Assembly (NCBI GenBank): GCA_001586195.1
Contig: CP014609.1
Span: forward strand, 3,004,501 to 3,068,500
Reading direction: 5' to 3'
DNA from: Solibacillus silvestris
Lineage (GTDB): Bacteria; Bacillota; Bacilli; Bacillales_A; Planococcaceae
DNA length: 64,000 nucleotides
Shown: piece by piece, positions 3,495-26,323 of the stretch
Position numbering within the stretch: position 1 is the first letter of the stretch
Layout: every line of letters begins with the position of its first letter
Notes under the pieces: model-generated
Told to the model about the DNA's origin: nothing
The model's input: the letters and a program-made list of their open reading frames with translations, nothing else
The model's database searches: none
Position numbers and translations under genes: made by a program

Positions 3495-3937
3495 TTCTAA
3501 TATATCCTTAAAAGTTCTAATATAATTTTATTTGTTCTAATAAATTTGCGATTTTCTAATATAAGTGCGATTTGTTCTAATAAAAGTTCTAGATGTTCAA
3601 ATAAAGTACCTACTTCTTCTAATATCCTTATGCCATTTTCTAATAAACGACTCAAATGTTCTAATAAAATCCAAGAAAGCTTTCTCCCGGCCCTTTCCAT
3701 CCGGAATAAAGCCTCTCCTACACTTAAAATTCAAGGAACTTCTAATATCCATCCCAGTTCTTCTAATATCACCCGGCTTTCTTCTAATAACCCACTCAAT
3801 TGTTCTAATAAATTCATGGCACGCTATCTCCTAACCTATTTCACCGCCAATAAAAGCTCTTTTGCACCTCAAAATTAAGGAACTTCTAATATCCCCCGTA
3901 CTACTTCTAATAAAAGGCTCAATTGTTCTAATAAAAT
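3495..3937 (+). repeat. TTCTAATA array 1 (nine-box block A plus two B blocks)
   Basis: Boxes of the form TTCTAATA(A/T) begin at 3495, 3515, 3535, 3554, 3575, 3596 (variant TTCAAATA), 3617, 3638 and 3659: spacings 20, 20, 19, then 21 five times. After an 81-bp step come boxes at 3740, 3761, 3782 and 3803, and after another 81-bp step 3884, 3905 and 3926. The two spacer-plus-B segments are recognisably similar, offset by 144 bp, so they look like a local duplication. The array fills the space between convergent genes and ends about 20 bp from the A/T run of the MFS gene terminator. Unknown function. Confidence 0.85.
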
Positions 3938-3957
3938 CCTCGCCTCCCCACCCCAAA

Positions 3958-3993
3958 CAAAAAACAGCACCGGCAAATTCCCGATGCTGTCCC
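3958..3993 (-). terminator. Terminator of the MFS transporter gene
   Basis: On the minus strand CAGCATCGG...CCGGTGCTG is followed by TTTTTT. TTCTAATA array 1 starts just past the T-run. Confidence 0.85.
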
Positions 3994-4040
3994 ATAAACG
4001 ATTCACTAAAAATGTGAGCAGTTCATTCGTAGCTATTAAA

Positions 4041-5456
4041 TTAATTCCCAACCTGCTTGCTGTTCTTCACGAAAAACGAACCAACCAGACCTAATACTGC
4101 AACGACGGTCACGACGATGAATGCTGAGTGTACACCGTGTGCTAAAAATTCTGCCGGTAAGGCGTTGTTGAATTTTTCGATGTAGTTTTGCTGACCGATT
4201 GTGAACATTGTAATGGCAACCGCAGTACCTGAAGCACCCGCGATTTGCGTTAGGGTGTTCAATGCCGCTGAACCGTCAGCAAATTTATGTGGTGCCAACG
4301 AGTTCATCGCATTTGTTTGTGCCGGCATGATTGTCATCGATACCCCGACAAAGAATACACATAAGTTAACGATAATGATCCAAGTTGCTGTTGTTGCCGA
4401 AATCGTCGTTAAGAACACGATCATTGACACTAAAATCAGTGTAAAGCCAATCCGTGTGAAGATTTTCGCTCCGACTTTATCGAAGTTTGTCCCAACGATC
4501 GGTGACATGATGATATTTAAGATATTACCTGGCAACATACATAAACCTGCAGTTAAAGCTGCGAAACCTAATACTGTTTTCAGGAACATCGGCACTAAGA
4601 TCGCCACTGAAAGAATCATGAACATTGTCGCAACCATCAATGCGACACCTAAAGAGAACATTGGTGATTTGAATACCGATAAGTCGATCATTGGCTCATC
4701 CATTTTTGTTTGGCGAATGCCGAAGACTACTAATAAAACGAAACCAACGACAAGTGGCACCCAAACGATTGGTTTTGTAATCGATTGCTCCGCTAACGTT
4801 GCTAACGCGAATACAACACCACCGAAACCGAATGTAGAAGTAATTAATGATAATAAATCAATTTTTGGACGTGTTACGTTTGATACATTGTCCACTTTAG
4901 AAAGTGCTAAAACGATTACAACGGCATACACAACGACCATGATCCAGAAAATATATCTCCAGCTTAATGAAGATACGATTAAACCTGCAATTGATGGGCC
5001 TAATGCCGGACCTGCCGTTAAAATAATCCCGACGATTCCCATGACGGCACCGCGCTTTTGAACCGGGAAAATCAGCATTACAACACTGAACATTAACGGT
5101 AAAATAATCCCTGTTGCGAGTGCTTGTACGAAACGACCTGCCAGTAATACCGCAAAGTTCGGTGCTAATGCGCCTAATAACGAACCGATCACCGCGAATA
5201 CAACGGCTGCCACTACTAATTGACGTGTTGTAAACCAGCGTACTAAATAAGATGATAATGGAACTAATACGGCTAATACTAATAAATAGCCCGTTGTTAA
5301 CCATGCCGCTGATGCTGCTGATACACCGAAGTCATCCATAATATTTGTTAGCGCCATGTTTAATGCCGTTTCACCAAATAAACCAACGAATGTACTGATC
5401 ATCAGAACAGCTGCCATGCCTTTTGGGCTTTTCACATTGAATATAGGTGCTTCCAT
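4041..5456 (-). CDS. DHA2-family multidrug efflux MFS transporter (LmrB/EmrB-like)
   Basis: 471 residues, starting at the ATG six bases after GGAGGAG; the frame is open 10 codons further up. A proton-driven drug exporter of the inner membrane by family: about 14 hydrophobic segments, the early acidic motif around NMALTNIMDDFGV typical of DHA2 proteins, and the antiporter motif C region (GPALGPSIAGLI) near residue 150. Upstream at 5609 lies a site nearly the same as one in front of the TetR gene at 5919-6503, matching the B. subtilis lmrAB pattern of a repressor controlling its pump. Drug range unknown. It has its own terminator. Confidence 0.88.
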   Translation of the reverse strand: MEAPIFNVKSPKGMAAVLMISTFVGLFGETALNMALTNIMDDFGVSAASAAWLTTGYLLVLAVLVPLSSYLVRWFTTRQLVVAAVVFAVIGSLLGALAPNFAVLLAGRFVQALATGIILPLMFSVVMLIFPVQKRGAVMGIVGIILTAGPALGPSIAGLIVSSLSWRYIFWIMVVVYAVVIVLALSKVDNVSNVTRPKIDLLSLITSTFGFGGVVFALATLAEQSITKPIVWVPLVVGFVLLVVFGIRQTKMDEPMIDLSVFKSPMFSLGVALMVATMFMILSVAILVPMFLKTVLGFAALTAGLCMLPGNILNIIMSPIVGTNFDKVGAKIFTRIGFTLILVSMIVFLTTISATTATWIIIVNLCVFFVGVSMTIMPAQTNAMNSLAPHKFADGSAALNTLTQIAGASGTAVAITMFTIGQQNYIEKFNNALPAEFLAHGVHSAFIVVTVVAVLGLVGSFFVKNSKQVGN

Positions 5457-5882
5457 TTTTTTCTCCTCCAATTTCATAAGACTCATTTATGAAAGATGAT
5501 AATTGCTGCGTATCATGCTTTTTGCTGTTATAGAACAATTTTTCAAACAGCACGCTTTAAAATATATCAAATTTTTTCATGGAAATTCAATCGCTCAGGA
5601 GAAAAATATTAGACCGGTCGTTATAATTGTGAACACCCATTATCCATTTTTAACCTTAACTGGGCCTATCTTTCGTAGACATTTTTTAACATATTTTCAT
5701 GAAAACGATTGCACTTTTTTCAATAAATTATAGAGAGAAACAATAAGAACGTTGCTACATCAACATTTGCAAACGATTCCAACTCCATTGCTATGAAAAA
5801 CAATAAATTTGCAAGAGTTTTCTACACACTTATTTCGAAAATCAGGCTAATTGTGAACAACTTTTATTTGCAACAACAACAA
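5457..5882. other. Intergenic region upstream of the MFS gene
   Basis: AT-rich, no gene. It holds the LmrA-like operator at 5609-5628. Two sequences resemble CcpA cre sites: TGAAAACGATTGCA at 5700-5713 (one mismatch from TGWAANCGNTNWCA) and TGCAAACGATTCCA at 5768-5781 (two mismatches). The cre calls are weak because they lie well upstream of the presumed promoter. Confidence 0.4.
5609..5628 (+). promoter_or_regulatory. LmrA/YxaF-like operator upstream of the MFS gene
   Basis: TTAGACCGGTCGTTATAATT resembles the ATAGACC(A/G)GTC-type operator known for B. subtilis LmrA/YxaF. A second copy with a similar sequence lies in front of the TetR gene (6518-6537). Confidence 0.65.
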
Positions 5883-5883
5883 A

Positions 5884-5919
5884 AAGGCCTGTCCAGAAAT
5901 CCTATTCCGGACAAGCCTT
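5884..5919 (-). terminator. Terminator of the TetR gene
   Basis: On the minus strand AAGGCTTGTCC...GGACAGGCCTT is followed by TTT and a TTG-rich stretch. The stem begins at the stop codon. Confidence 0.8.
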
Positions 5920-6503
5920 TACTTATATTGTGCAAGCAACGCAGGGATGACTTTGCTTATGTTTAATAACGGTTCATTCGATCGCTGGGACAATGACAGT
6001 GTAACGGCCCCTTCAATCATCGCACTTACCGCCTTACTAAGTGTGACCGCCGCTTCATCACTAAACCCGTTGGCAATCAATTTTGTATAGTAGATTGATT
6101 CCCAGTACTTATACGTATCGCCGCAAACTTTCCGCAAACGCTCATTCATAAAGGCCGATTCCGCCGCAAGCAGCCCGAATGGCATCATCGTATAGGAATG
6201 CTCCTCTAGTCCATTTTCCACATCAAATAAGTCGGCCATCGCCAAAATATGGGCATTCAGTGCTGCTCCTACATCCACGAACTCATTCATATAATGCTGA
6301 ATAACCGCGCCGATCCGCCGTTTTGACAGTACGATCGCTTCTTCCGCAAGCTGCTCTTTCCCCTCAGGAAAATAGTGATACAGAGACCCTTTTGGTGATC
6401 CCGATTCGCTTATAATCTGATTCAAGCCGGTCCCATGGAAACCTTGAAAGTAAAACAACCGCGTAGCTGTTTCCAAAATCTTATCCTTCGTTTGATTAGA
6501 CAT
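5919..6503 (-). CDS. TetR-family repressor (LmrA/YxaF-like)
   Basis: 194 residues. The N-terminal HTH is classic TetR: KDKILETATRLFYFQGFHGTGLNQI, then GSPKGSLYHYFPEGKEQL, which closely matches LmrA/YxaF/QacR-type repressors. The C-terminal helical domain would bind a drug or flavonoid-like ligand. Its own promoter contains TTAGACCAGTTGTTATAGAA, and the MFS gene downstream has a similar site, so autorepression plus control of the pump is likely. Its terminator separates it from the pump gene, so the two are a regulon, not one operon. Confidence 0.88.
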   Translation of the reverse strand: MSNQTKDKILETATRLFYFQGFHGTGLNQIISESGSPKGSLYHYFPEGKEQLAEEAIVLSKRRIGAVIQHYMNEFVDVGAALNAHILAMADLFDVENGLEEHSYTMMPFGLLAAESAFMNERLRKVCGDTYKYWESIYYTKLIANGFSDEAAVTLSKAVSAMIEGAVTLSLSQRSNEPLLNISKVIPALLAQYK

Positions 6504-6517
6504 ATCGTTCTCCCACC

Positions 6518-6537
6518 TTCTATAACAACTGGTCTAA
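6518..6537 (-). promoter_or_regulatory. LmrA/YxaF-like operator upstream of the TetR gene
   Basis: On the minus strand TTAGACCAGTTGTTATAGAA ends about 14 bases before the start codon region and ribosome site. It matches the site at 5609 in 15 of 20 positions by hand count. Confidence 0.65.
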
Positions 6538-6656
6538 TTGATACCGATCAAATTTGAATAGCTTAAACATATCACAAATTCTCCCGCTTATATAATAACC
6601 TGATGCCAACGTTCACAAATTTTCAATAACTCCACGGAATGTGTTGCCCCAGGACT

Positions 6657-6984
6657 TTCTAATATATCCGAAAATGTTCTAATATAAATTTATTTGTTCT
6701 AATATATTGCGGATTTTCTAATATAGGTGCCCAATGTGCTAATAAGTCCTCCGAAAGTTCTAATAAAGCTTCTACATGTTCTAATATCGTATCCTCCTCT
6801 TCTAATAAACCACTCAATTGTTCTAATAAAATCAAAGCACGGCTTCTTCTCCGCGAAATTTAACTTTCCACACCGACAAATTCAGCTCCCTCTCCCTCCA
6901 ATTCACAGAACTTCTAATATCCCAGCCGTTTCTTCTAATATCATCTAAAAATCTTCTAATAACCCGCCCTAATCTTCTAATAAA
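6657..6984 (+). repeat. TTCTAATA array 2 (nine-box block A plus one B block)
   Basis: Boxes begin at 6657, 6677, 6697, 6716, 6737 (TGCTAATA), 6758, 6779, 6800 and 6821, the same spacing series as array 1 (20, 20, 19, then 21 five times). A 91-bp step leads to four boxes at 6912, 6933, 6954 and 6975. Boxes 1-4 are also alike outside the core in arrays 1, 2 and 4 (an AT-rich filler TATTTG between boxes 2 and 3, and a G-GATT filler before box 4). The array fills the gap between the TetR gene and eno and ends about 20 bp from the eno terminator T-tract. Confidence 0.85.
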
Positions 6985-7004
6985 ACCCACGCCCCCCACC
7001 ACAC

Positions 7005-7036
7005 AAAAAAGCACCCGCCATAAAGCGAGTGCTCGT
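7005..7036 (-). terminator. Terminator of the glycolytic operon after eno
   Basis: On the minus strand AGCACTCGC...GGCGGGTGCT is followed by TTTTTT. TTCTAATA array 2 lies immediately beyond. Confidence 0.88.
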
Positions 7037-7047
7037 TCATCAAACAG

Positions 7048-8400
<1,353 letters not shown>

Positions 8401-8416
8401 TTAACCCCGCGATCAA

Positions 8417-9958
8417 TTACTGTTCGCTTGGCATAACTAACGATTTCCCTGTCATCTCTGCAGGCTGGGCAATATTAAGTAATTCAAGCATCGTCGGTGC
8501 CAGATCGGCTAAAATGCCGTCTTCATAAAGCATGACACCAGGCTTCGTCACAATCACCGGTACCGGGTTTGTCGTATGTGCTGTCATTGGCTTGTCATCC
8601 AGTGTCACCACTTCATCTGAGTTGCCATGATCAGCTGTAATGATCGCATAACCGCCTTTAGCAGTAATCGCATCAACGATTTTACCTAGGCACTCATCCA
8701 CTGTTTCGATTGCTTTAATCGTTGGTTTAAGCATTCCGGAATGTCCGACCATATCCGGGTTTGCAAAGTTTAAAATGATCGCATCGAACTTCTCTCCTGC
8801 AATAGCTTCCAGTAAAGAATCCGTCACTTCATACGCACTCATTTCAGGCTTCAAGTCGTAAGTCGCCACTTTTGGAGAGGCGATTAAAATACGCTCCTCG
8901 CCAGCAAATGTTTCTTCACGTCCACCGCTCATAAAGAACGTGACATGCGGATATTTTTCCGTTTCCGCAATGCGCAGTTGTGTTTTGCCAGCTTTTGAAA
9001 TAACCTCACCGACTGTATTAACTAAATTATCATTTTCGTATGCTACATCTGCTACGACATCATCGCTGTAATGTGTAAAAGTAACAAATTTCAGATTCGT
9101 CGGATGATTTTCAGAGCGTGGCATTGCATCAAATTTTTCATTTGTCAATAAAGACGATAATTGAATCGCACGGTCCGGACGGAAGTTAAAGAAAATGACC
9201 GCATCGTTCGTGCTGATCGTTGCGGCAGGTCGGCCTTCTTCAGTCACGACAAACGGCACAACGAATTCATCATGTAGTTCACGTTCATAGGAAGACTGGA
9301 CACCTGCTGTTGCGGAAGAAGCTGTTTGTCCGATTCCATCAACTAATGCATTGTACGTTAAGCCGACACGTTCCCAGCGACGGTCACGGTCCATTGCATA
9401 GTAACGGCCATGAATCGATGCGAACTTCCCGATCCCAATTTCTTTCATCTGTTTTTCTGTTTCCAAAATATATTCAAGTGCTGTCGTTGGACCGACATCG
9501 CGGCCATCCAGAAAGCCGTGAACATATACTTGCTCAAGACCATTTGCTTTAGCCAATTTCAATAAGGCAAATAGATGCTCATAGTGACTATGAACACCGC
9601 CATCTGAAAGAAGACCCATCAAATGGAGCTTCGAACCATGTGCTTTTGCATGTTCAACAGCTGCAAGAAACGATTCATTACGGAAGAAATCCCCATCACG
9701 AATCGATTTGTGAATACGTGTCAGGGACTGGTACACAATGCGTCCAGCCCCGATATTCAAGTGTCCAACTTCAGAGTTCCCCATTTGGCCTTCCGGTAGA
9801 CCTACCGCTTCACCACTTGCTATTAAAGTTGCATGTGGGTAGGCTTGCCAGTAACGGTCGAAATTCGGTTTATTTGCTTGTGCTACGGCATTACCTTTTA
9901 CTTCATCACGAAAGGCAAAGCCGTCTAAAATTATTAATGCTACCGGTTGTTTAGGCAT
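8417..9958 (-). CDS. gpmI: 2,3-bisphosphoglycerate-independent phosphoglycerate mutase
   Basis: 513 residues, of the alkaline-phosphatase superfamily. Isomerises 3- and 2-phosphoglycerate using two Mn ions. The metal site begins with LIILDGF (Asp12) and the phospho-serine is in GNSEVGH (Ser62). [15 protein letters not shown] binds substrate; [13 protein letters not shown] and [10 protein letters not shown] supply the remaining metal ligands near the C-terminus. The start overlaps the tpiA stop by eight bases, so the two are coupled. In spore formers this enzyme is known to be pH/Mn sensitive, which stores 3-PGA in the forespore; that is family knowledge, not visible here. Confidence 0.97.
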
Positions 9959-10712
9959 TTGCTGCCGCCTCCAATAATTTCATGAATGATGCTGGTTGTA
10001 GGCTTGCTCCTCCTACTAATGCGCCATCGATATGTTCTTGTGATAAAAGCTCTTCAATGTTCTCAGGCTTTACACTGCCACCGTATTGAATGCGCACTTT
10101 TTCAGCTGTATCTTTTCCGTATAATGTTTCAACCGCCAGACGGATTGCACAGCATACTGTATTCGCATCTTCCGCAGTAGCTGTTTTCCCTGTTCCGATT
10201 GCCCAGATTGGTTCATACGCAATGACCATATGCTCAACTTCAATTGGAGCAAAGTCTTTTAACGCTTTTGTAATTTGGCGTGCTACTTTTGCTTCGGTTT
10301 GACCCGCTTCACGCTCTTCCAATGTTTCGCCGCAGCAAATAATCGGTACAATACCGTAATTAAGAGCAGCACGGACTTTTTTGTTGATCGCTTCGTCTGT
10401 TTCGTTGAATAGCTCACGACGCTCCGAATGTCCTAAAATGACATAATCGACATTGACATTCGAAAGCATTTTCGGGCTGATCTCGCCTGTAAATGCTCCT
10501 TCGTCTTCAAAGTGCATGTTTTGCGCGCCAATTGCCAGGCTTGAATCTTCTGCCCCTACGACAAGTGTCGGTAAATATAATGCAGGTGCACAGATGACCG
10601 CATCAACTTTATCCGGAGAAGGAACCTCTTGTTGGATTTCTTCGATAAAATCAACTGCCTCATCAAAGGACTTATACATTTTCCAGTTTCCTGCTATGAT
10701 CGGTTTTCTCAT
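9951..10712 (-). CDS. tpiA: Triosephosphate isomerase
   Basis: 253 residues. Interconverts dihydroxyacetone phosphate and glyceraldehyde 3-phosphate. TIM-barrel signatures: GNWKMYKS (Asn/Lys active site), GHSERRELF (catalytic His), [14 protein letters not shown] (catalytic Glu and loop 6), YGGSVKPEN and GALVGGASL for phosphate binding. Start [11 protein letters not shown] fits the family. It overlaps gpmI. The 185 bases between it and pgk contain a REP-like palindromic repeat, which is unusual inside a highly expressed operon. Confidence 0.97.
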
Positions 10713-10752
10713 TCAAAACCCTCCGTTTTTAAAAGATTCTGTTCAATCATGC

Positions 10753-10857
10753 CGTTGTTTTCCGCTACGGCGGACGCTTTCCCCGGGCGCGGCTCAAGCC
10801 TATAGTCTCGAGCGTCGCGCTTTTCCCGGTGGAGTCGCCGCCTTCGCTCCAAACAAC
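10753..10857. repeat. REP-like palindromic repeat, copy 1 (between pgk and tpiA)
   Basis: An imperfect palindrome with ends GTTGTTTTCCGCTACGGCGG and its complement CCGCCTTCGCTCCAAACAAC, plus the shared core GGACGCTTTCC and GTCTCGAGCGTCGCGC. It is the most divergent of five copies in the window (others at 32856, 34007, 50908 and 52418). Confidence 0.75.
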
Positions 10858-10897
10858 TAACATCCTGTAGTCACAGATAATTTATCCTATTAATGAT

Positions 10898-12082
10898 TTA
10901 TTTATCGTTTAACGCAACAATTCCCGGTAATTCTTTACCCTCCATTAACTCTAATGAAGCACCGCCGCCTGTTGAAATATGGTCCATTTTCGAAGCGACT
11001 TCGAATTTTTCTACCGCTGCAGCAGAGTCACCGCCGCCGATAATTGTGTAGCCGTCTGTTGTTGCCATTGCATCCGCTACTGTTTTCGTACCGTTTGCGA
11101 ATTTTTCCATTTCGAATACACCCATTGGTCCGTTCCAAATGATTAATTTTGATTGCTTAATAACTTCTGCATAGTTTTCAGCCGTTTTCGGTCCGATATC
11201 CAGTCCCATCCAATCAGATGGAATTGCATCGATTGCCACAACTTGAGTTTCCGCATCTTTAGAAAACTCGTTTGCTACGACAGCATCGACCGGCATATGC
11301 AGCTGTACACCTTTTTCTTTCGCTTGTTCGATAAAGCTTTTTGCCAGCTCGATTTTATCTTCTTCCAGCAATGACTTCCCGATATCGTGACCCATCGCTT
11401 TTACGAACGTAAATACTAAACCGCCGCCGATAATCAGGTGATCCACTTTATCCAACAGGTTTTCAATAACCCCGATTTTATCTTTAACTTTCGCTCCACC
11501 AATAATCGCTGTGAACGGGCGCTCCGGATTGGATAAAGCTTTTCCTAATACGTCCAGTTCTTTTTCCATTAATAGACCTGATACAGCCGGTACATGTTTT
11601 GCAATGCCCTCTGTTGAAGCATGTGCACGGTGAGCTGCGCCAAACGCATCGTTTACATAAAGATCCGCTAATTTCGCAAACTCTTCTGCCAATGCTTCGT
11701 CGTTTTTCTCTTCGCCTTTATGGAAACGAACATTTTCAAGCAGGATAATTTCGCCGTCTTGCATATTGTTAACCGCTGCTTCTACATCTGAACCAATTGA
11801 TTCATCCAATTTTTTGACTGGCTTGTCCATCAATTCCGAAAGACGCTCGCCGACTGCTGTTAAGCGCATGTCCTCATTCACTTCGCCTTTTGGACGGCCA
11901 AGATGTGAAGCTAAAATTACTTTTGCTCCAGCGTTTACTAATTGTTCAATTGTTGGAATAGCTGCACGAATACGCGTTTCGTCGGTAATGCGGCCCTCAT
12001 CCATCGGCACATTAAAATCGACACGCACAAATACGCGTTTTCCTTTTACATCTACATCGTTCATTGATTTCTTTAAAAACAT
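10898..12082 (-). CDS. pgk: Phosphoglycerate kinase
   Basis: 394 residues. Transfers phosphate between 1,3-bisphosphoglycerate and ADP. Start at the ATG nine bases after GGAGG, giving [17 protein letters not shown]; an in-frame ATG three codons earlier overlaps the ribosome site. Signatures: [60 protein letters not shown] and [12 protein letters not shown] (nucleotide site). It is separated from gap by a terminator, so it is expressed by read-through or from its own promoter. Confidence 0.97.
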
Positions 12083-12210
12083 ACTGAACATCCTCCTTCA
12101 TACTCGTTCGTCAATTATTGTGGATTGTATACTCGTTAGTTAAGATAGTAACAAAATTCGATAAGGCTGTCTTGATATCGCCTCTGTTTTGTATATTTTC
12201 CTTATATCCG

Positions 12211-12249
12211 AAAAAAGAGCGGTCCGGGTGAGTCCCTGCCGCTCTTTTA
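12211..12249. terminator. Terminator between gap and pgk
   Basis: AAGAGCGG...CCGCTCTT stem with A/T runs on both sides. It would lower transcription from gap into pgk-tpiA-gpmI-eno. The remainder of the 285-bp gap-pgk spacer holds no gene. Confidence 0.82.
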
Positions 12250-12367
12250 CCCTTATTTATTATAAGGTTTACCTGTATTAAAGGCTATACTTTTTATGCC
12301 CATTTCCTTTTAATATGTCACACTTTTTCTTTAATTCCGAAAAAGTATGTCACATTTTATCGAAATA

Positions 12368-13381: not shown

Positions 13382-13447
13382 GTGTAATTCCTCCAATAAC
13401 TTTATTATTAAAATAGTATGGGTAAAATCATACTTTTAAAAACATAT

Positions 13448-14881: not shown

Positions 14882-14942
14882 TGGCAGTTCCTCCCTTTTT
14901 TTATTATTATAGCTGATGATGCTGGGGATGGCGGGGATTTTA

Positions 14943-15112
14943 TTAGAAGATTTTTTGATTTATTGGAACATCCGGGTGGCATATTAGAAGTTCTCGAATG
15001 CTTATTAGAAGATCCAGACCACTTATTTGAACATCGGCCACTTATATTAGAAGTTCCGTGTTTTATTAGAACTTTTACTGGTTTATTAGAACATCACGCT
15101 AACTTATTAGAA
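14943..15112 (-). repeat. TTCTAATA array 3 (single nine-box block, inverted orientation)
   Basis: On the plus strand the box reads TTAGAA, at 14943, 14963 (TTGGAA), 14984, 15005, 15026 (TTTGAA), 15047, 15066, 15086 and 15107. Read on the minus strand the spacings are 21, 20, 19, 21, 21, 21, 21, 20, the same irregular series as arrays 1, 2 and 4. It has no B block and is inverted relative to the other three. Box 1 lies about 20 bp from the T-tract of the TPM gene terminator. Confidence 0.85.
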
Positions 15113-17636: not shown

Positions 17637-17637
17637 G

Positions 17638-17706
17638 AGCAGGATATCCTGCTTAGAAAAAGTTGGCTTAAAGAATCTTTACGGTTCTTTATGGCCGGCT
17701 TTTTTA
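17638..17706 (+). terminator. Perfect palindrome and terminator after the 58-aa gene
   Basis: AGCAGGATATCCTGCT is a perfect 16-bp palindrome. Immediately after, AAAGAA...TTCTTT inside GTTGGC...GCCGGC forms a second stem followed by TTTTTT. Confidence 0.75.
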
Positions 17707-17822
17707 CTCTTTTCTCTCCCTTTATTGAATTTCGCAACATACGAAGATACTTTCATTCAATCGTGATATTATTTACATAAATTGTTTTGCGCGTAGAAAT
17801 TTACCTAAGGGGGAACTGTAAA

Positions 17823-18509: not shown

Positions 18510-18540
18510 CATCCCTTAACAAATGCTTGCAAACATACTA

Positions 18541-18577
18541 AAAAAAGCACAAACGCTGTTATATCAGTGTTTGTGCC
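18541..18577 (+). terminator. Terminator of the HAD gene
   Basis: GCACAAACGCTG and CAGTGTTTGTGC stem with an A-run before it; T-run on the right is weak. The next 200 bases up to 18782 hold no gene that I can support. Confidence 0.65.
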
Positions 18578-18782
18578 CTATCCTATAGAACATCCTTTAT
18601 ACACCTTTTTATACAATCCCCACAAACCCTGATTACACGGTATTTTCACTGAAAGATCTGGTGGAACTCTCCGCTTGTCTTTTGGTCGCTCCTTTTTAGT
18701 TGTAATATAGTGAAGTAGAAATCACTGTTCGCCAGCACACCCCCTGAATGTTAAGCTAAAGGTCAACCCCCTTCAGCCCGAT

Positions 18783-19238
18783 TTAATCCATGTTATAACC
18801 ACACTCCTCGCAAAACTTTTTCGGTTCATCGTAGCATTCATTGCAGTTGGCGCAATTATATATATATGACGCCGTAATATCATCAATCGTTTGCTTTGCT
18901 TTATAGTCGGGCACTAATTCCTCCTCTTCGACACCCGCTAATTTACTAAGTTCATTTAATTCTTCAATATCTTTTTCCAGCTGCGCAATCGCGTTTTCTT
19001 TCGCCTCAATTTGTGCGAGCTGATAATTCACCATGCTGACCGAAAACAGGCTGTTGCGGTTCAAATTGACGATTTCCCCGATTTGCTGTTTCAGTATTTT
19101 GATTTCTTCTTCAATTCCATTGATTTGTTTTCGCAGTTTGGACCGGTCGACCGCAAAAGACGTTTTACTGCTAAGCGTTGTCACCTTCTTGTTGACTTTC
19201 TTCCTCCATTTCTGAAATGTGCCTTTCCCTTCACCCAT
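18783..19238 (-). CDS. Coiled-coil protein with C-terminal zinc ribbon
   Basis: 151 residues from ATG 19238 (GGAGG six bases upstream). Basic N-terminus (FQKWRKKVNKKV), a long heptad coiled coil (RKQINGIEEEIKILKQQIGEI ... QIEAKENAIAQLEKDIEELNEL, each part shortened here), and a C-terminal four-cysteine ribbon CANCNECY...CEEC with two extra Cys. The design fits a zinc-binding scaffold or membrane-proximal adaptor. Family not recognised; no operon partner beyond the small gene at 19473 upstream. Confidence 0.65.
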   Translation of the reverse strand: MGEGKGTFQKWRKKVNKKVTTLSSKTSFAVDRSKLRKQINGIEEEIKILKQQIGEIVNLNRNSLFSVSMVNYQLAQIEAKENAIAQLEKDIEELNELSKLAGVEEEELVPDYKAKQTIDDITASYIYNCANCNECYDEPKKFCEECGYNMD

Positions 19239-19421
19239 AAAAACCCTCCACTTCAATCAGAAATTTTTCTGGATTCAACTGGTGCATCCACTTGTTCTTC
19301 TTCACAATATGTATTTCCATGTCGAAATATGCCTTTGTTATAAAATGAAATTTCAGTCAGTGTGGATTTTTCATCCCCCACGGAGTAGAAGGAACTCAAG
19401 CTAACTACCCGTTCCCCGTAA

Positions 19422-19456
19422 AATAATAAAAGGCGCATCCCGTAAAGAAATGCGCC
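19422..19456 (-). terminator. Terminator after the permease/small-gene unit
   Basis: On the minus strand GGCGCAT...ATGCGCC then TTTTATTATTTT. It ends the transcript that carries the 70-aa gene and the NCS1 permease. Confidence 0.8.
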
Positions 19457-19472
19457 CGCACGATTCAAATTT

Positions 19473-19685
19473 TCAACTGCTTATTTGTTCCAATAATTTA
19501 CTGGAGAAATATTTCCGCGTATCTGCCATTTTAATATGCAGTAAACGCTCTTCAAGGCTTACCGGATGGATAAACGTAACGAAAGCCCCTTCCAGATTTT
19601 CATCGATCGTTTTAATCATATAATTTTCAGCAAGCAGTTCATCAATTTGCTGAATTTCTTTTTCTACAAACTGAAATTCTGACAT
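19473..19685 (-). CDS. Hypothetical 70-aa protein downstream of the NCS1 permease
   Basis: 70 residues with GAGGTG five bases before the ATG. Starts 21 bases after the permease stop, so it is cotranscribed. Sequence is soluble, mixed alpha/beta (FVEKEIQQIDELLAENYMIK, GAFVTFIHPVSLEERLLHI), with no Cys or clear motif. Not recognised; its position suggests a role tied to pyrimidine uptake or degradation, but that is inference from context only. Confidence 0.65.
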   Translation of the reverse strand: MSEFQFVEKEIQQIDELLAENYMIKTIDENLEGAFVTFIHPVSLEERLLHIKMADTRKYFSSKLLEQISS

Positions 19686-19705
19686 GATTGCACCTCGTTT
19701 ACAAT

Positions 19706-21187
19706 TTAATCTGTGGAAGCTGTTTGTTGAACACCAATCGGTTCTGGAACAGCGTCAATTTCCCAGCTGCGTCCTGCTGTAATACCTAAATATTCATCAT
19801 CGCTCGGATTCACGATTTCAGCTTGCGGATACTTTTTGAACCACCAGTATTTCGCCAGCACATAATAGATTGCCGCCCCTACAAAGAAGCCGACAAGCGA
19901 AGAAAATGAAGGCCAAATATTCGCGATCAGACCGCCAAGCACCCAAGCAATAATACCCGCTACATTGACACCTTTCAAATAGCGATATTGCCCTTCCACC
20001 TCATAAAGGTCCTTTACATTTACTCGTCGCTTACGGAGCAAGTAATAGTCAGCGAATAAAATACCGACAATGGAAGAAAGGATTCCGCCGACAACGAGCA
20101 GAACGCTATTTAAAATATCGAACAAACTCCAAGGCTGCACAATCGTCCCGACAATACCGGCAATGACTACACCTATCCAGAACGGTACTTTCGGTCCGCC
20201 GATATTCGAGAAAATCGTCGCGGCCGGAATAACGTTCGCGGACGTATTTGTCGACCACTGTGCCAGTACGATCATCGATAACAGCATCACCAGGACAAAA
20301 CCGCCCGCCGCTTGCTGAAGTGCGTTGATCGGATCACCTGAACCAGTCGCCATATAACATACCGCACCAATGACGATCATCAGTGTATTGAAAATTGGCT
20401 GAACGACAAGGGAACCTAGTAACTGTGTCTTATTTCGTTTGAACCAGTTACGCTCATTTTTCGGTGCTTTGAAGTGACGGGAAAGTGTCGGCATATCCGC
20501 AGCCAATGTAGCCCAGAAGCCCATAATCGCCATTGCGACAACCATGAATGCCGTAAACTGTTCAAAACCGGTTTGCGGTGCTTCCACCCAAGACCATACT
20601 GCTTTCCCTTGCTCTTTCGCTTCAGCAGATAATTGCAAATACATCCAAATAGAAATAAAGATAATAATCGGTGCAGCGAAATCCGCGAAACGTTCAATCG
20701 ATTTAATCCCTAAAGACACATTGAACAACTGCAATGTCGCAAATACAAGGAAGCAAATAAACCAGTTGTCAAAGCCGAACATAATATTCAGAATGCCGTT
20801 GATCGCCAATGCCCCGAAATACGTGTTAATCCCGAACCAGCACGACGCTGTAAACGCACGGGCAAATGACGGGAAGTGCGTACCGATCGTTCCGAATGGG
20901 GCACGCATATAAACAGGAAACGATAATCCGTGTTCAACACCGATATCCCCGATGACGACCATGAAAATCCCGATCAGAATCGAGCCAACCAGTGTCGCCA
21001 GGATGAGCATCGGCATACTTAAATTAACAATTCCTCCTGCACCGATCGCAAATGCGGCGAGTACGATGGCCATCCCTACCCAGATGACGCCAAAGCCCAT
21101 CATACTAATACTGCGATTCTCATATGTGACAGGAAGTAAGTCTGGTGATTTTAAATAGTTACTACTTGTGCTTTTTCTGTCTGACAT
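19706..21187 (-). CDS. NCS1-family nucleobase:cation symporter
   Basis: 493 residues with about 12 membrane segments and the NCS1 family pattern. N-terminal PVTYENRSISMMGFGVIWVGM, HGLSFPVYMRAPFG, and a polar loop FWATLAADMPTLSRHF. C-terminal tail is soluble. Members carry uracil, cytosine, allantoin, hydantoin or thiamine precursors. Placement beside preAT and dihydropyrimidinase makes uracil/thymine or a dihydropyrimidine the likely substrate. A 96-bp inverted repeat lies between this gene and preA. Confidence 0.9.
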   Translation of the reverse strand: MSDRKSTSSNYLKSPDLLPVTYENRSISMMGFGVIWVGMAIVLAAFAIGAGGIVNLSMPMLILATLVGSILIGIFMVVIGDIGVEHGLSFPVYMRAPFGTIGTHFPSFARAFTASCWFGINTYFGALAINGILNIMFGFDNWFICFLVFATLQLFNVSLGIKSIERFADFAAPIIIFISIWMYLQLSAEAKEQGKAVWSWVEAPQTGFEQFTAFMVVAMAIMGFWATLAADMPTLSRHFKAPKNERNWFKRNKTQLLGSLVVQPIFNTLMIVIGAVCYMATGSGDPINALQQAAGGFVLVMLLSMIVLAQWSTNTSANVIPAATIFSNIGGPKVPFWIGVVIAGIVGTIVQPWSLFDILNSVLLVVGGILSSIVGILFADYYLLRKRRVNVKDLYEVEGQYRYLKGVNVAGIIAWVLGGLIANIWPSFSSLVGFFVGAAIYYVLAKYWWFKKYPQAEIVNPSDDEYLGITAGRSWEIDAVPEPIGVQQTASTD

Positions 21188-21210
21188 CGCTACACCTCTC
21201 TTTATTCAAT

Positions 21211-21306
21211 TTTTAGGCCAACAGGAAATGGGTCAGTCAGCCGTTGTCGCACGATGCGACGCTGTTAGGCTGACATCCATTCCTTTAAAAATCAGTGATA
21301 TCCGCC
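21211..21306 (+). repeat. Inverted repeat IR-L flanking preA-preT
   Basis: A ~96-bp segment beginning TTTTAGGCCAACAGGAAATG and ending near ATATCCGCC. Its reverse complement recurs at 24081-24177 with about 85-90% identity by hand. It contains a nested hairpin: GTCAGCC...GGCTGAC around GTCGCA-CGA-TGCGAC. Confidence 0.85.
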
Positions 21307-21312
21307 AAAACC

Positions 21313-22596
21313 CTACCTCGCAATACTTGAACTGCTTGGAGCAAAACCTGCAATTAATGTCTGTCTTTCATTCCATGTCATCGGCGGCTGTGTCGGAATA
21401 AGTTCCTTCATCGTAATCGCACCTTCAGCCGGACAAACAATGGAACATAAGTTACAGCCAACGCAGTCTTCCTCACGCACTTTCAGCATCGGACGGCCAT
21501 CTTCTGTATACAGATCGATACATTGATGGGACGTATCTTCACAGGCAATATGGCACTTATTACAGTTAATGCAAACATCATTATTAATCTCTGCAACAAC
21601 TTTATAATTTAAGTCCAAATCTCCCCAATCCGAATATTTCGGTACTGTTTTCCCAACAAGATCCGTGACCGATGCTAAGCCTTTATCGTCTAAATAGTTG
21701 TTTAAACCATCAATCATATCTTCAACAATGCCAAAGCCATGATGCATTGCCGCTGTACAAACTTGCACACTCGTCGAACCCATTAAGATGAACTCAGCAG
21801 CGTCCTGCCAGTTCGAAATACCGCCAATTCCGGAAATCGGTAAATTGATATACGGACTTCTTGCACATTCACCAACCATGTTCAGAGCAATTGGCTTAAC
21901 GGCCGGTCCGCAATAACCGCCGTGCGCCCCTTTATTGCCAACATGCGGAATCGTGTTCCAAGAGTTCAAATCAACACCAGCCAAACTATTGATCGTGTTG
22001 ATCATACTAATCGCATCAGCACCGCCGCGCACTGCCGCTTCCGCCGTTACAGTAATATCCGTAATATTCGGTGTCAATTTGACGATGACCGGTACTTCAG
22101 CATATTCTTTCGCCCAATAGGTCTGCTTTTCCACCAGTTCAGGCACTTGACCCGAAGCGGCTCCCATGCCACGTTCCGCCATACCATGTGGGCAGCCGAA
22201 GTTTAATTCGAAGCCATCTACCCCAACATCCTGTACTCTTTTTACAATTTCATGCCATTTTTCTGCTTTCGGCTCCACCATTAACGATGCGATGATCGTA
22301 TGATTCGGGAACCGTTTTTTCGTTTCATAAATTTCCTTTAAGTTCACTTCGAGCGGTCGGTCAGTGATGAGCTCAATATTGTTGAAACCCGCCACCTTTT
22401 GCCCATTAAAACTGACAGCAGCAAAACGTGAAGAAACGTTTAAAATAGGATCCCCCAACGTTTTCCACACAGCGCCGCCCCAACCCGCTTCAAATGCGCG
22501 CTGCACTTGATAGCCGGAGTTTGTCGGTGGTGCCGATGCCAACCAAAAAGGATTCGGTGACTTAATACCAGCAAAATCTATTCGTAAATCTGCCAT
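21313..22596 (-). CDS. preA: NAD-dependent dihydropyrimidine dehydrogenase subunit PreA
   Basis: 427 residues. Reduces uracil/thymine to 5,6-dihydro forms with PreT (NAD type). N-terminal dihydroorotate-dehydrogenase-like TIM barrel binding FMN (IKSPNPFWLASAPPTNSG, GFELNFGCPHGM, PVIVKLTPNITDI, SGIGGISNWQDAAEFI). C-terminal 2x[4Fe-4S] ferredoxin domain with CINCNKCHIAC and CVGCNLCSIVCP. Starts 11 bases after preT; the two form the enzyme as in E. coli PreTA. First dedicated step of reductive pyrimidine breakdown. Confidence 0.95.
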   Translation of the reverse strand: MADLRIDFAGIKSPNPFWLASAPPTNSGYQVQRAFEAGWGGAVWKTLGDPILNVSSRFAAVSFNGQKVAGFNNIELITDRPLEVNLKEIYETKKRFPNHTIIASLMVEPKAEKWHEIVKRVQDVGVDGFELNFGCPHGMAERGMGAASGQVPELVEKQTYWAKEYAEVPVIVKLTPNITDITVTAEAAVRGGADAISMINTINSLAGVDLNSWNTIPHVGNKGAHGGYCGPAVKPIALNMVGECARSPYINLPISGIGGISNWQDAAEFILMGSTSVQVCTAAMHHGFGIVEDMIDGLNNYLDDKGLASVTDLVGKTVPKYSDWGDLDLNYKVVAEINNDVCINCNKCHIACEDTSHQCIDLYTEDGRPMLKVREEDCVGCNLCSIVCPAEGAITMKELIPTQPPMTWNERQTLIAGFAPSSSSIAR

Positions 22597-22607
22597 TTCA
22601 ATTCCCC

Positions 22608-23945
22608 CTATGCAATTTCTGAATTTGCGTTTAGTTCATAATGAATCGCGTAAGCCGAATCTTTGCCTTGCTGCGCCGCTGATACAACAGTCGCCTCACC
22701 GTACCCGTTGCCGTAAATCGCATCACCGCAAGCGTAAATTTTCGGATTCGATGTCTTCAGGCTATTATGATCTACATCAATCACACCACGTGTATTTGCC
22801 AACCCTAAATGCTCAATCAGCTCATACTGTTTTGTTTGACCGATCGCCCGAATAACCGCATCCGCCTCAATGACAAATTCAGAACCAGGAATCTCCATTA
22901 ATGTCCCTTTTCCATTTTCGATGTCCGTCAGTTTCATTTTGATGCATTCCATTCCGATCACTTTCCCATTATCGTCGCCAATAATGCGCTTCGGTAATGT
23001 CAGCCACCTGAACTCAACACCGTCCTGCTTCGCAAAATCAAACTCAAAATCGTACGCCGTCATTTCGTTTGATGTACGACGGTAAACGATTTGTACTTGC
23101 TCAGCACCCAATCTTACAGAACATGTCGCTGCATCAATCGCCGTATTACCGGCACCGATAACTAGCACTTTTTTGCCTAACACTCGATCAGTGAATGAAG
23201 ATTTTGATTCCTTCACAAAATCAATCGCATCATACACGCCGTCCAAGTTTTCGCCCTCAACGCCAAGCATCGGTACTTTGCCCATACCAACCGCCACAAT
23301 GATGCGGTCATAATTTGCAAGCAGTTCATCTACCAGTACATCTTCGCCGATTTTCGTACTCGTTTTAATTTCAACGCCGAGGTTTTGTACTTGCTGCACT
23401 TCCCACTCCACAACATCCTGCGGTAAGCGGAATGAAACGATACCGTAATAATTCAGGCCGCCCGCTTTTTCATCTGCTTCGTAAATCGTCACACCGTACC
23501 CAAGCAATGCCAGTTCACGAGCAGCAGATAACCCTGCCGGCCCGCTTCCGATAATCGCGACTTTCTTGCCGTTTGCCGGTTGTGGTGTAAACAGATTGAC
23601 ATTCGACTCGCGCAGCCAATCCGTTGCATAGCGCTGTAGATGACCAATTTGAATCGGCTTTTCCTCACTGTTCAACACACAAGCCCCCTCACAAAGCTCG
23701 ATTGTTGGACAAACACGTGCACAACTTGCGCCTACGGGATTTGACTCCATAATGACACGAGCTGAACCTTTCATATTATTCGAAGCAATCTTCTTAATAA
23801 AGCTCGGAATATTAATGCTCGTTGGACATGCCTTCACACAAGGTGGATCGTAGCAATACAAACAACGATTCGCTTCAACAGTTGCCGCGTATGTTGTTAA
23901 GCCACCAAATATTTCTTCAAAGTTTTTCGCTAAACTATTGCTCAT
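22608..23945 (-). CDS. preT: NAD-dependent dihydropyrimidine dehydrogenase subunit PreT
   Basis: 445 residues, GltD/PreT-type flavoprotein partner of PreA. N-terminal Fe-S region (CLYCYDPPCVKACPTSINI; CARVCPTIELCEGAC), then FAD fold (GSGPAGLSAARELALLGYG) and NAD fold (IGAGNTAIDAATCSVRLGA). ACGDAIYGNGYGEATVVSAA near the C-terminus is the FAD-binding GD motif. Carries electrons from NADH to the PreA flavin through the Fe-S clusters. Together with preA it is bracketed by the inverted repeats at 21211 and 24081. Confidence 0.94.
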   Translation of the reverse strand: MSNSLAKNFEEIFGGLTTYAATVEANRCLYCYDPPCVKACPTSINIPSFIKKIASNNMKGSARVIMESNPVGASCARVCPTIELCEGACVLNSEEKPIQIGHLQRYATDWLRESNVNLFTPQPANGKKVAIIGSGPAGLSAARELALLGYGVTIYEADEKAGGLNYYGIVSFRLPQDVVEWEVQQVQNLGVEIKTSTKIGEDVLVDELLANYDRIIVAVGMGKVPMLGVEGENLDGVYDAIDFVKESKSSFTDRVLGKKVLVIGAGNTAIDAATCSVRLGAEQVQIVYRRTSNEMTAYDFEFDFAKQDGVEFRWLTLPKRIIGDDNGKVIGMECIKMKLTDIENGKGTLMEIPGSEFVIEADAVIRAIGQTKQYELIEHLGLANTRGVIDVDHNSLKTSNPKIYACGDAIYGNGYGEATVVSAAQQGKDSAYAIHYELNANSEIA

Positions 23946-24080
23946 TTCATAACAACCCTCTCCAGTTTGATTTGTTATTACTTTTAGCTATATCTTCGTT
24001 AACCTTTACAGATGATTTGAAAGCTTGTTTTATTAAATTCAGCCGATGCCCCAACCACCTGCTGAATGAAGATAAGCCCC

Positions 24081-24177
24081 GGCGGATGTCACAGATTTTT
24101 TAATGGAATGGATGTCAGCCTTAAAACGTCGCATTGTGCAACAAAGGCTGACTGACCCACGTCCTGTGGGCCTAAAA
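24081..24177 (-). repeat. Inverted repeat IR-R flanking preA-preT
   Basis: Inverted copy of the element at 21211-21306. It lies between the preT start and the dihydropyrimidinase stop. It keeps the GTCAGCC...GGCTGAC stem but the inner GTCGCA/TGCAAC stem has a mismatch. The interval between the two copies contains exactly preA and preT. Confidence 0.85.
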
Positions 24178-24212
24178 TCTGGACGCAATTACGCAAAAGC
24201 GAATTGATTGTG

Positions 24213-25610
24213 TTATGAAGTTACTTTAGTGGAACCTTTGACTTCACGACGGATATACTTGCCGCTTCCAAGCTGTCCGACGAATTTTTTATCTTGAATG
24301 ACATATTCACCGCGCACAAGCACACTTGTCGGCTCGCCCGTCACTTCAAGCCCTTCAAATGCGTTGTAGTCCACATTCATATGATGCGTTTCTGCTGAGA
24401 TTGTACGTTTTACTGTTGGATCGAATAATACGATATCCGCATCCGAACCGACCGCGATCGTTCCTTTTTTAGGGAATAGCCCAAAAATTTTCGCAGACTG
24501 CGTTGAAATCATATCAACAAACTCATTTTCTGTAATACGGCCTTTCGCAACACCTTCCGAATACAGTACAGAGAAACGGTCTTCGATAAACGGCCCGCCA
24601 TTCGGGATTTTCGAGAAGTCATCTTTCCCTAATGTTTTCTTGCCGTTGAAGCTGAATGAACATTGGTCTGAGCCAATCGTTTGCAGCTGTTTCGCTTTCA
24701 GTGCATTCCACAATACTTCCTGATGCTCTACCGGACGTAACGGTGGTGACCATACATATTTCGCGCCTTCAAAATTCGGCTTTTCCAATGCCGTCTGGTC
24801 AAGCACTAAATACGGCGGACAAGTTTCCCCTAACACGTTGTAGCCTTTATTACGTGCCGAAATGATTTCATCGACCGCTTCTTTACACGTTACATGCACG
24901 ACATATAATTGCGCTCCCGCTAAGTTCGCCAGTTCAATCGCACGTTTCGTCGCTTCCCCTTCTACTTCAGGCGGACGAGTAAGCGCATGATAAATCGGCT
25001 CCGTCTGGCCATTCGCTTTCGCTTCTTCTACTAGCTCATCGATAACCGATCCGTTCTCACAATGAACCATCACCGTTGCGCCCAGCTTCTTCCCGACTTT
25101 AAATGCCTGGAATAACGTACGATCCGTCGCCTGGAACTCCTTCGCATAAGCAAGGAACACTTTGATCGAGCTGATCCCGCCTCTCTCCAATGCTTCCGGT
25201 AATTCCTGCAGCCGCTGCTCATTCAAATCACCGATCATTAAGTGGAAGCCATAGTCGATTACGGCCTTATCTTGTGCCTTGCCATGCCACGTATCAATCG
25301 CATCCATCAATGTTGGCGAGCCTGCACTAATACAGAAATCGATAATCGTCGTTGTTCCTCCGTATGCTGCAGCAATCGTTCCTGATTGCCAGTCATCATC
25401 AGTTACCGTATTGTTGAACGGCATATCAAGATGGGTATGAGGGTCAATACCACCCGGGAATAAAAGCTTTCCTGTTGCATCAATAATTTCTGCTTCCGCA
25501 TCTTCTATTTTTGCTGCAATTTGAGTGATGATCCCGTCCTCAATCAGCACATCCCCTTTAAACGTATCCGCAGCAGTAACAATTGTTCCCCCAGTAATAA
25601 TCTTTTTCAT
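24213..25610 (-). CDS. hydA: Dihydropyrimidinase / D-hydantoinase
   Basis: 465 residues of the cyclic amidohydrolase family. Opens 5,6-dihydrouracil/dihydrothymine to N-carbamoyl-beta-amino acids. Binuclear metal site: HTHLDMPF (two His), SSIKVFLAYAKEF (Lys to be carboxylated), MVHCENGSVI and VVHVTCKEAV (His ligands), and GSDQCSF (Asp). The substrate-loop Tyr region (EERFSVLYSEGV-type, here IEDRFSVLYSEGV) fits dihydropyrimidinase. Second step of the pathway; upstream lies a long AT-rich leader and TTCTAATA array 4. Confidence 0.94.
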   Translation of the reverse strand: MKKIITGGTIVTAADTFKGDVLIEDGIITQIAAKIEDAEAEIIDATGKLLFPGGIDPHTHLDMPFNNTVTDDDWQSGTIAAAYGGTTTIIDFCISAGSPTLMDAIDTWHGKAQDKAVIDYGFHLMIGDLNEQRLQELPEALERGGISSIKVFLAYAKEFQATDRTLFQAFKVGKKLGATVMVHCENGSVIDELVEEAKANGQTEPIYHALTRPPEVEGEATKRAIELANLAGAQLYVVHVTCKEAVDEIISARNKGYNVLGETCPPYLVLDQTALEKPNFEGAKYVWSPPLRPVEHQEVLWNALKAKQLQTIGSDQCSFSFNGKKTLGKDDFSKIPNGGPFIEDRFSVLYSEGVAKGRITENEFVDMISTQSAKIFGLFPKKGTIAVGSDADIVLFDPTVKRTISAETHHMNVDYNAFEGLEVTGEPTSVLVRGEYVIQDKKFVGQLGSGKYIRREVKGSTKVTS

Positions 25611-26012
25611 ATGAACCCTCCTAGTTTTCTAGTAATTTCTATTGAAAAAATGAAAAACCAAAGCGCAGATTAATTTCGATTCTAGTACTATTAACTTTTG
25701 AGAATATTTACTAGTTTTTAAGCATATAATTTAATATATAGTATTATATGTAACAATTAGTAACATAATATCTAATTAACGGAAAAAATTAAAATAAATA
25801 TTTTCTGTTAATAAAACCCTTGTAAATTCTTCATATACATAACTTTACTGAATATTTAGAATAAAATTAATATACAAAAGGTAATTTTTTCCGTAAATAT
25901 TTTAGACAAAAGGTTAAAAGTTGTAAGGAAATATACTGTATTTATGTAAGTTTTTCTAACATAATGTATTGTTTTTGTCGGGTATCTAGTAGGAGGAAGC
26001 TTCGGTGAAGAG
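25611..26012. other. AT-rich leader region upstream of dihydropyrimidinase
   Basis: 400 bp with no gene, very AT-rich (long runs such as TATATAGTATTATATG near 25736). It probably holds the promoter of hydA-preT-preA and the permease, but no single -35/-10 pair stands out. No convincing riboswitch or operator match. Confidence 0.4.
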
Positions 26013-26014
26013 TT

Positions 26015-26323
26015 TTCTAATATGTTATGGAGTTGTTCTAATATATTTTTATTTGTTCTAATAAAGTTTGGATTTTCTAATATATCCTTCTCTTGTTCTA
26101 ATATGTGACCGCCATGTTCTAATTTCTCCCCGCAATCTTCAAATATCCATTCTGTTTCTTCTAATATCCGTTGGCAATGTTCTAATAAAACTATAACCCG
26201 TTTACTCACCCGTCCAAATCAGTACTTGCAGAAACCATTACCGCCCAATCTTCTAATAAACACCCCAACTTTTCTAATAACCGACCCACTTCTTCTAACA
26301 ACCGCTCTCATTGTTCTAATAAA
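26015..26323 (+). repeat. TTCTAATA array 4 (nine-box block A plus one B block)
   Basis: Boxes begin at 26015, 26036, 26056, 26075, 26096, 26117, 26138 (TTCAAATA), 26159 and 26180: spacings 21, 20, 19, then 21 five times. A 71-bp step leads to 26251, 26272, 26293 (TTCTAACA) and 26314. The text following block A (ATAAAACTATAACCCG ... CAAATCAGTA) is repeated after block B, showing the block-plus-spacer unit is itself duplicated. Lies between dihydropyrimidinase and the terminator of the semialdehyde dehydrogenase. Confidence 0.85.

Follow-up and report, generated by a model that had tools for sequence, protein, structure and literature searches.

Within a 64,000-nucleotide stretch of the Solibacillus silvestris chromosome (hereafter the window, bases 3,004,501-3,068,500 of a 3.99-Mb single-contig genome) lie four arrays of a short repeated box, TTCTAATA, that follow one nine-box design and belong to a wider class of phased arrays linked to genes for poorly studied proteins with a NERD (nuclease-related) domain. 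The reading that we favour, with a probability of about three in four, is that these arrays are multi-site binding platforms of cognate proteins composed of a NERD domain, a zinc ribbon and a winged helix. It builds on the anatomy of the arrays, the constraint on their boxes, the linkage between arrays and NERD genes, and the pairing of box dialects within single genomes.

Anatomy and constraint of the nine-box arrays

In the window, TTCTAATA occurs 45 times exactly on the two strands, while 3.37 copies are expected and 100 shuffles gave a maximum of 8, and a de novo scan for any 8-mer present at least three times at steps of 19-22 base pairs (bp) returned only the array boxes. The original prediction had claimed four blocks of nine boxes with the spacing series 20 or 21, 20, 19 and then 21 repeated; these blocks are real when one mismatch is allowed per box, with 8, 8, 7 and 7 of the nine boxes being exact in arrays 1 to 4. 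Array 1 (nine-box module at 3495..3666, TTCTAATA on the + strand) lies about 0.38 kb past a NERD gene and array 2 (6657..6828, +) downstream of eno, and both have steps of 20,20,19 followed by five of 21 when read in the direction used for the prediction. Array 3 (14941..15112, TTCTAATA on the - strand) has steps of 21,20,19, four of 21 and a final 20, and array 4 (26015..26187, +) has 21,20,19 and five of 21. Side modules of three or four boxes, all on the + strand, accompany arrays 1, 2 and 4, namely a four-box and a three-box module at array 1 (3740..3810 and 3884..3933) and one four-box module each at array 2 (6912..6982) and array 4 (26251..26321).

The same design recurs throughout the genome. 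A genome-wide search with the spaced-box pattern found 225 TTCTAATA pairs at steps of 18-22 bp, the reversed-pattern control being 0, and at least 38 nine-box modules were recovered from the window and 49 further loci of the same genome, which were chosen from the matches listed, further arrays being possible; a 50th stretch (L080) was a copy of array 1 and was dropped before the counts. Reading the TATTAGAA strand, 34 of the 38 modules share the series (20|21),21,21,21,21,19,20,(20|21), while three of the remaining four end in 19,21,20 and the fourth shows 20 at step 4. Many nine-box modules have a four-box module about 144 bp ahead of them. Across the 38 modules 245 of 342 boxes are exact, and the variants are specific to their position in the module, as with TATTTGAA, which is found at box 4 in 20 of the 38.

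The same nine-box blueprint is present at orthologous sites of sister genomes, where the boxes are far more conserved than the fillers between them. In 34 ortholog rows from G006, among which three own loci appear twice, 67 of 2448 box positions (2.7%) and 811 of 3282 filler positions (24.7%) differ, and in 10 rows from G008 the figures are 23 of 720 and 240 of 966, the box divergence being biased low because the modules had been found by their boxes. When G006 modules were instead aligned by their flanks (n=31), with the partner conditioned on boxes 6 and 7 only and with modules excluded if either flank was missing or the filler divergence was above 0.5, boxes were off consensus at 3.0% of positions and fillers differed at 24.9%. 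The prediction of a defined, copied element, as opposed to a random AT repeat, is thus supported by the recurrence of the blueprint in this genome and its sisters and by the constraint on the boxes.

The signal of the arrays resides in the DNA itself, and neither in a coding sequence nor in a structured RNA. A coding role was considered because 21 bp equal seven codons, one frame reads LLExxxx, as in a small heptad coiled-coil protein, and four open reading frames of at least 80 amino acids overlap the arrays of the window. This explanation is largely refuted and retains next to no probability: changes in the boxes avoid synonymous sites (TTA>TTG 5, GAA>GAG 0, TTA>TTT 37), the 19 and 20 steps disrupt the frame, 20-bp steps occur in some dialects, and the LLExxxx frame is stopped in 28 of 38 modules. 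Moreover, at least one filler differs by one base in 8 of 34 ortholog rows, so that the phase is kept to one base and the reading frame is not. A structured RNA or transcript element, which the original prediction had listed among the possible roles and which the location of arrays past gene ends could suggest, was likewise rejected as very improbable. Indeed, RNAalifold gave no structure on either strand, the mean single-sequence z was +0.83 (38 modules), no Rfam match at gathering level was obtained on the window arrays, and both array orientations stand behind terminators about equally.

As for their surroundings, 50 of 51 array loci had both neighbours called, as crude open reading frames; 19 arrays lie between genes that both point with the TATTAGAA strand, 16 between converging genes, 13 between genes that both point against that strand and 2 between diverging genes. 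A terminator-like hairpin with a T-run, an association that had been proposed for checking, is found between gene end and array at 44 of 54 gene ends, as compared with 6 in shuffles, and this position is common to the two orientations (23 of 29 and 21 of 25). The candidate explanation that arrays stand behind highly expressed genes was not supported, the median codon adaptation being 0.581 (59 genes) versus 0.568 (127 genes; p 0.18).

NERD genes and box dialects

The gene beside array 1 is read in two pieces on the + strand, an N-terminal NERD piece (2179..2820, Pfam PF08378, E 3.6e-17) whose frame is interrupted before the zinc-ribbon part, and a second piece with the end of the zinc ribbon and a predicted C-terminal winged helix (2876..3118), assigned from relatives and an AlphaFold model. 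The window copy is thus frame-broken, while unbroken orthologs of about 312 amino acids are present in G001, G004, G006 and G008. Relatives of the C-terminal piece occur in 14 of 16 genomes of the genus, own genome included, and a NERD match was absent in G009 and G010. PF08378 is the only Pfam family above the cut-off in the window piece and in five of five relatives, and 17 relatives have in common a Cys4 zinc ribbon, near-invariant D..E-x-K residues (D79 and E92-x-K94) and a helix-turn-helix-like end. The NERD domain belongs to the PD-(D/E)xK class, according to the accessible part of PMC12458937, the nuclease activity of the array-linked proteins being putative. The C-terminal domain is predicted to be a winged helix of three helices and a beta wing, in the order H18-31 E35-37 H38-45 H50-59 E63-65 E72-74 (H, helix; E, strand), in an AlphaFold model built from a two-sequence alignment of the window piece and L081; its predicted local distance difference test score (pLDDT) is 80.7, the best of five, the others ranging from 71.6 to 52.1. 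Foldseek returned weak matches to this model (best E 0.04), many of them winged-helix DNA binders. A full-length model from the single sequence reached a pLDDT of 38, a sequence search of the PDB gave nothing significant, and viral and plasmid collections yielded no relatives at the thresholds used. A small HTH_Tnp_1/coiled-coil open reading frame (PF01527) also lies at 3119-3439, separating the NERD gene from array 1; a similar stretch is found in G008 and G004 and a shortened one in G006 and G001, and none was seen there in G002 and G015.

Arrays and NERD genes are linked well beyond the window. In the genus, an array lies within 500 bp downstream of the NERD gene at 29 of 30 loci (0 in shuffles). 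In other genera, 23 of 26 genomes have NERD matches at E 1e-10, and the loci taken from them comprise every such match in G061-G068 and the best matches in the rest. After loci read twice (L309, L312, L315-L317, L321-L324, L328, L331, L334, L335 and L337) and L310, which is the same gene as L357, had been dropped, 85 unique Bacillales loci were retained, and at 71 of them, including 42 of the 55 from other genera, an array phased at 20-21 bp lies no more than 500 bp from the NERD open frame. Shuffled flanks gave 3 of 86, random pairs of windows 57 of 2000 (2.9%), and loci that had themselves been chosen for having arrays 304 of 2000, while 500-bp windows at 0.9-1.5 kb from NERD genes had arrays in 6 of 123 cases as compared with 82 of 167 adjacent windows. 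The linkage also follows the type of C-terminus. Indeed, a NERD subfamily with a different C-terminus (L344, L345, L359, L363, L369 and L329, with L343 and L376 added by eye) has no adjacent arrays, 0 of 6 by pattern and 0 of 8 with the two additions, and accounts for eight of the 14 array-less loci; among clusters at 50% identity, half or more of the members have arrays in 39 of 43 outside this subfamily and in 0 of 2 inside. At L353, L354, L356 and L325 long direct arrays flank the NERD gene on both sides, with 11-25 units per side within about 500 bp, and L354 has 62 overlapping copies of a 20-bp periodic repeat, those listed being mostly 82-95% identical.

Different NERD lineages mostly go with different boxes. 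The four NERD paralogs of the window's genome adjoin four boxes, TTCTAATA, TTCTACTT, TGGCTAAA and TGAGGATT, two of which, TTCTAATA and TTCTACTT, are also the boxes of other arrays in the same genome. In particular, a second dispersed family, the AAGTAGAA arrays at L040, L041:3374 and L079 (about 327, 413 and 423 kb), matches the TTCTACTT box that adjoins the NERD gene located at 433 kb. In other genera, 7 of 14 dispersed arrays (at gpmI loci) have a 7-mer core in common with an array next to a NERD gene in their own genome, as compared with 1 of 98 when the other seven genomes are used (Fisher 7e-7) and 5 of 266 with all other genomes; the partner search covered all E 1e-10 NERD matches in eight genomes, some of them at contig ends and one genome (G067) being a partial metagenome-assembled genome. 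A Sporosarcina pair, GGGCAACT and AGTTGCCC, is an eighth match by eye that the 7-mer rule missed. Likewise, TTTGGCGGA forms 9 pairs in G065, one of them adjoining a NERD gene, and a single one in G061, where it follows a NERD gene directly.

These dialects are lineage-specific. TTCTAATA pairs are present in 13 of 16 genomes of the genus and in 1 of 45 others, where they occur once and no more than in the control. Downstream of eno, three of the 16 genomes have other boxes at the same step, namely TAATAGCC in G013, TTATGAGC/T in G011 and AAAGGACA in G014. Within the genus, TTATGAGC pairs are confined to G011 (7) and AAAGGACA pairs to G014 (4), while TAATAGCC pairs number 11 in G003 and occur once each in G006, G010 and G013, the G010 match resembling part of a gene; L180 in G006 is a TAATAGCC-type array although the main dialect of that genome is TTCTAATA. 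Other Firmicutes (80 loci, 879 kb) have chains of at least four 8-mers at fixed periods of 21 (11 chains), 20 (2), 27 (2) and 40 (1), with none at other periods from 9 to 45 and none in shuffles. At 18 of 79 testable loci downstream of eno there is a chain of at least three, with 0.38 expected; eight of these are TTCTAATA and a Clostridioides chain may be chance. The NERD-free genomes G009 and G010 had 0 chains of at least four in 400 kb versus 1 in 400 kb of G011 and G002, and 10 versus 14 chains of at least three (shuffles 4 versus 2), a comparison that is uninformative because low-copy genomes have few arrays.

Co-variation, loss of NERD and weight of the evidence

Box similarity tracks protein similarity (Mantel r 0.40-0.46, p 0.0005) among 60 of the 85 proteins, L352 and proteins lacking an array or a complete zinc ribbon being excluded, and the recognition segment given the rest retains an r of 0.16 (p 0.0005). 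Distant proteins with similar recognition segments can have a common box core, as do L340 and L373 (GTCCGATA) and L332 and L319 (CGCAA), and post hoc tables of helix residues and boxes are strong over 52 distinct segments (D-GCG[AG], Y-CGCA, R/K-H/F-GAGC). A TTCTAATA-type NERD was not detected in G012 (a draft genome, 99% complete), where the median number of box deviations over 56 positions is 3.5 versus 1 in G006, with a paired difference of p 0.019 when modules that may be misaligned are kept and 0.15 when they are not; modules with at least nine deviations, possibly alignment breaks, number 4 of 18 in G012. The own genome, with its broken NERD gene, has 2.32 deviations per module versus 1.68 in G006 (p 0.002), even though its modules had been selected for good boxes. 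Exact TTCTAATA pairs number 320-410 in four relatives with unbroken NERD, 225 in the own genome and 128 in G012. Collectively, these data are only suggestive of box decay after the loss of NERD.

Several results weigh against the binding-platform reading. The Mantel correlation is equally strong for the NERD domain, the rest of the C-terminus and the recognition segment, which is what shared descent alone would give, and in an unbiased scan of 66 positions the recognition helix did not stand out, position 303 ranking first (r 0.17); since the post hoc residues did not come first in that scan, the helix code is a lead only. Foldseek gave no match to the C-terminal model at E 0.001. Six loci with the usual C-terminus (L284, L311, L355, L364, L367 and L372) have no array within 500 bp, seven of the 14 dispersed arrays of other genera are partnerless by the 7-mer rule, and the bias of the ortholog rows has been given above. 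With respect to decay, G008 has an unbroken NERD and yet a median deviation of 2, equal to the 2 of the own genome, with 2 of 11 modules at nine or more deviations, which again could stem from alignment breaks. An unbroken TTCTAATA NERD is also accompanied by as few as 61 (G005), 76 (G007), 12 (G002) and 11 (G015) pairs, and G013 has 13 TTCTAATA pairs while both its NERD loci carry other boxes. The G013 and G008 results slightly lowered our confidence.

Known systems, mechanism and alternatives

Repetitive extragenic palindromic (REP) repeats are dispersed, extragenic and near gene 3' ends, the gene of a REP-associated tyrosine transposase (RAYT) is flanked by the same repeat, and specific RAYTs adjoin different REP groups, as far as the accessible parts of PMC3116915 and PMC3733652 describe them. 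The arrays resemble this arrangement in that a protein gene stands beside a cognate repeat of which further copies are scattered behind genes, and in that different proteins have their own repeat groups. They differ from it in both of its defining parts, as they are phased, non-palindromic direct repeats in fixed nine- and four-box modules and not palindromes forming a hairpin, and the linked protein is a NERD-zinc-ribbon-winged-helix protein and not a HUH (histidine-hydrophobic-histidine) tyrosine transposase; they thus represent a different kind of system, possibly working like REP-RAYT. Plasmid iterons and other phased binding arrays are short direct-repeat cores about two helical turns apart that are bound by winged-helix proteins, and the arrays share such cores and spacing. 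Unlike iterons, they occupy many dispersed chromosomal loci behind terminators, have fixed internal 19-20 steps and adjoin a NERD gene instead of an initiator, the NERD protein having no plasmid match at the thresholds used. The DNA uptake sequences of Neisseriaceae are lineage-specific dialects of a short genomic motif (PMC3630211, accessible part) with ComP as cognate binding protein (PMC3868556, accessible part); here too there is a lineage-specific short-motif dialect and a candidate binding protein, but the arrays are at tens of loci, with several dialects per genome, whereas uptake sequences have thousands of copies. SmdA of S. aureus, described as a cell-division protein that resides in the membrane and has an N-terminal helix and part of a NERD domain, and PglW of the bacteriophage exclusion system BREX (profile matches only) have the NERD domain in common with the array-linked protein, and the accessible part of the SmdA account (PMC9040797) makes no mention of a DNA array. 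The bacterial interspersed mosaic elements (BIMEs) and gyrase sites of E. coli are, in the accessible descriptions, also extragenic repeats, for which a supercoiling role has been proposed; unlike these, which consist of palindromic REP units, the arrays adjoin genes without an excess of codon bias. No description of the array-NERD pairing was found in the literature searched, most subscription journals lying outside it, and the pairing may represent a novel type of partnership between protein and DNA.

According to the mechanism that we propose, the C-terminal winged helix would read one box of about 8-10 bp, and with boxes 20-21 bp, or two helical turns, apart many protein copies could line up on one face of the DNA; we infer that the NERD protein binds the boxes and multimerises there. 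Close to one end of the nine-box module, the fixed 19-20 steps might set where the assembly ends. The array that adjoins the NERD gene would be the primary one, same-box arrays being dispersed directly behind terminators and probably inherited vertically, and NERD lineages would diverge to different boxes, so that protein and array may co-evolve. More speculatively, the nuclease domain would drive the copying and upkeep of arrays, by gene conversion or by cutting and repair, a part that RAYT proteins are believed to play for REP repeats. The full proposal, an undescribed two-part system common across Bacillales in which a NERD nuclease with a modular winged-helix reader is combined with a phased array, many orthogonal dialects that have radiated inside genomes as well as among them, a readable helix code and protein-driven spread or upkeep of arrays, is finely balanced. 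The multi-site protein-binding array foreseen in the original prediction is supported by the repeated blueprint, the box constraint and the linked DNA-binding candidate, through which binding would occur; of that interpretation the element and the binding array were supported and the structured RNA was not, while the NERD gene, the dialects and the terminator position had been missed.

What the arrays do for their host, or for themselves, can be explained in different ways. A selfish element like those formed by REPINs (REP doublets forming hairpins) and RAYTs, in which NERD mobilises or converts arrays that spread from the gene-flanking one and persist only while NERD works, is a tentative possibility, somewhat short of an even chance. 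It would explain a primary array beside the gene with dispersed same-box copies, the direct arrays that flank some genes on either side (at L354, 25 units on each flank within some 500 bp), box decay above the level of G006 where NERD is absent or broken, and the lack of viral or plasmid relatives at the thresholds used, as with chromosomal RAYTs; however, neither movement nor an empty-site comparison was observed, different species have arrays at orthologous sites, a decaying repeat would not need a blueprint as exact as the nine-box one, and G008 misfits the decay pattern. The same orthologous sites and vertical inheritance, together with strong box constraint, phased spacing, positions behind or between terminators and a weak resemblance of the fold to that of the centromere binder AspA, speak for a role in host chromosome organisation, with NERD-occupied docking or barrier sites (topological insulator, segregation, nucleoid anchoring) and a nuclease fold that is structural or rarely active. 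We consider this role rather unlikely, as dialect turnover among close relatives, several dialects per genome and the NERD-free species G009 and G010 fit it badly, array positions look clustered and not evenly spaced, and adjacent genes do not have an elevated codon bias. Defence or self-recognition, with arrays marking the chromosome as self or titrating a nuclease that attacks array-less DNA, is improbable: NERD domains do occur in defence proteins and lineage-specific marks resemble self-labels, but the weak PglW/MAD6 profile matches are limited to the NERD part and the roughly 50 array loci read would mark little of the chromosome.

If the binding-platform reading is correct, linked protein-site pairs that diverge in parallel would constitute a natural library for decoding winged-helix specificity. 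The NERD-box pairs would also offer sets of orthogonal phased binding arrays and make the origin and persistence of dispersed extragenic repeats in Gram-positive bacteria directly testable.

Two further repeats are present in the window. The Bacillaceae-1 RNA (Rfam RF01690), a separate dispersed element, has three copies at 21218-21284, 24104-24170 and 32901-32967, and a 36-bp tandem repeat lies at 1765-1858 inside a small Asp/Asn-rich open reading frame.

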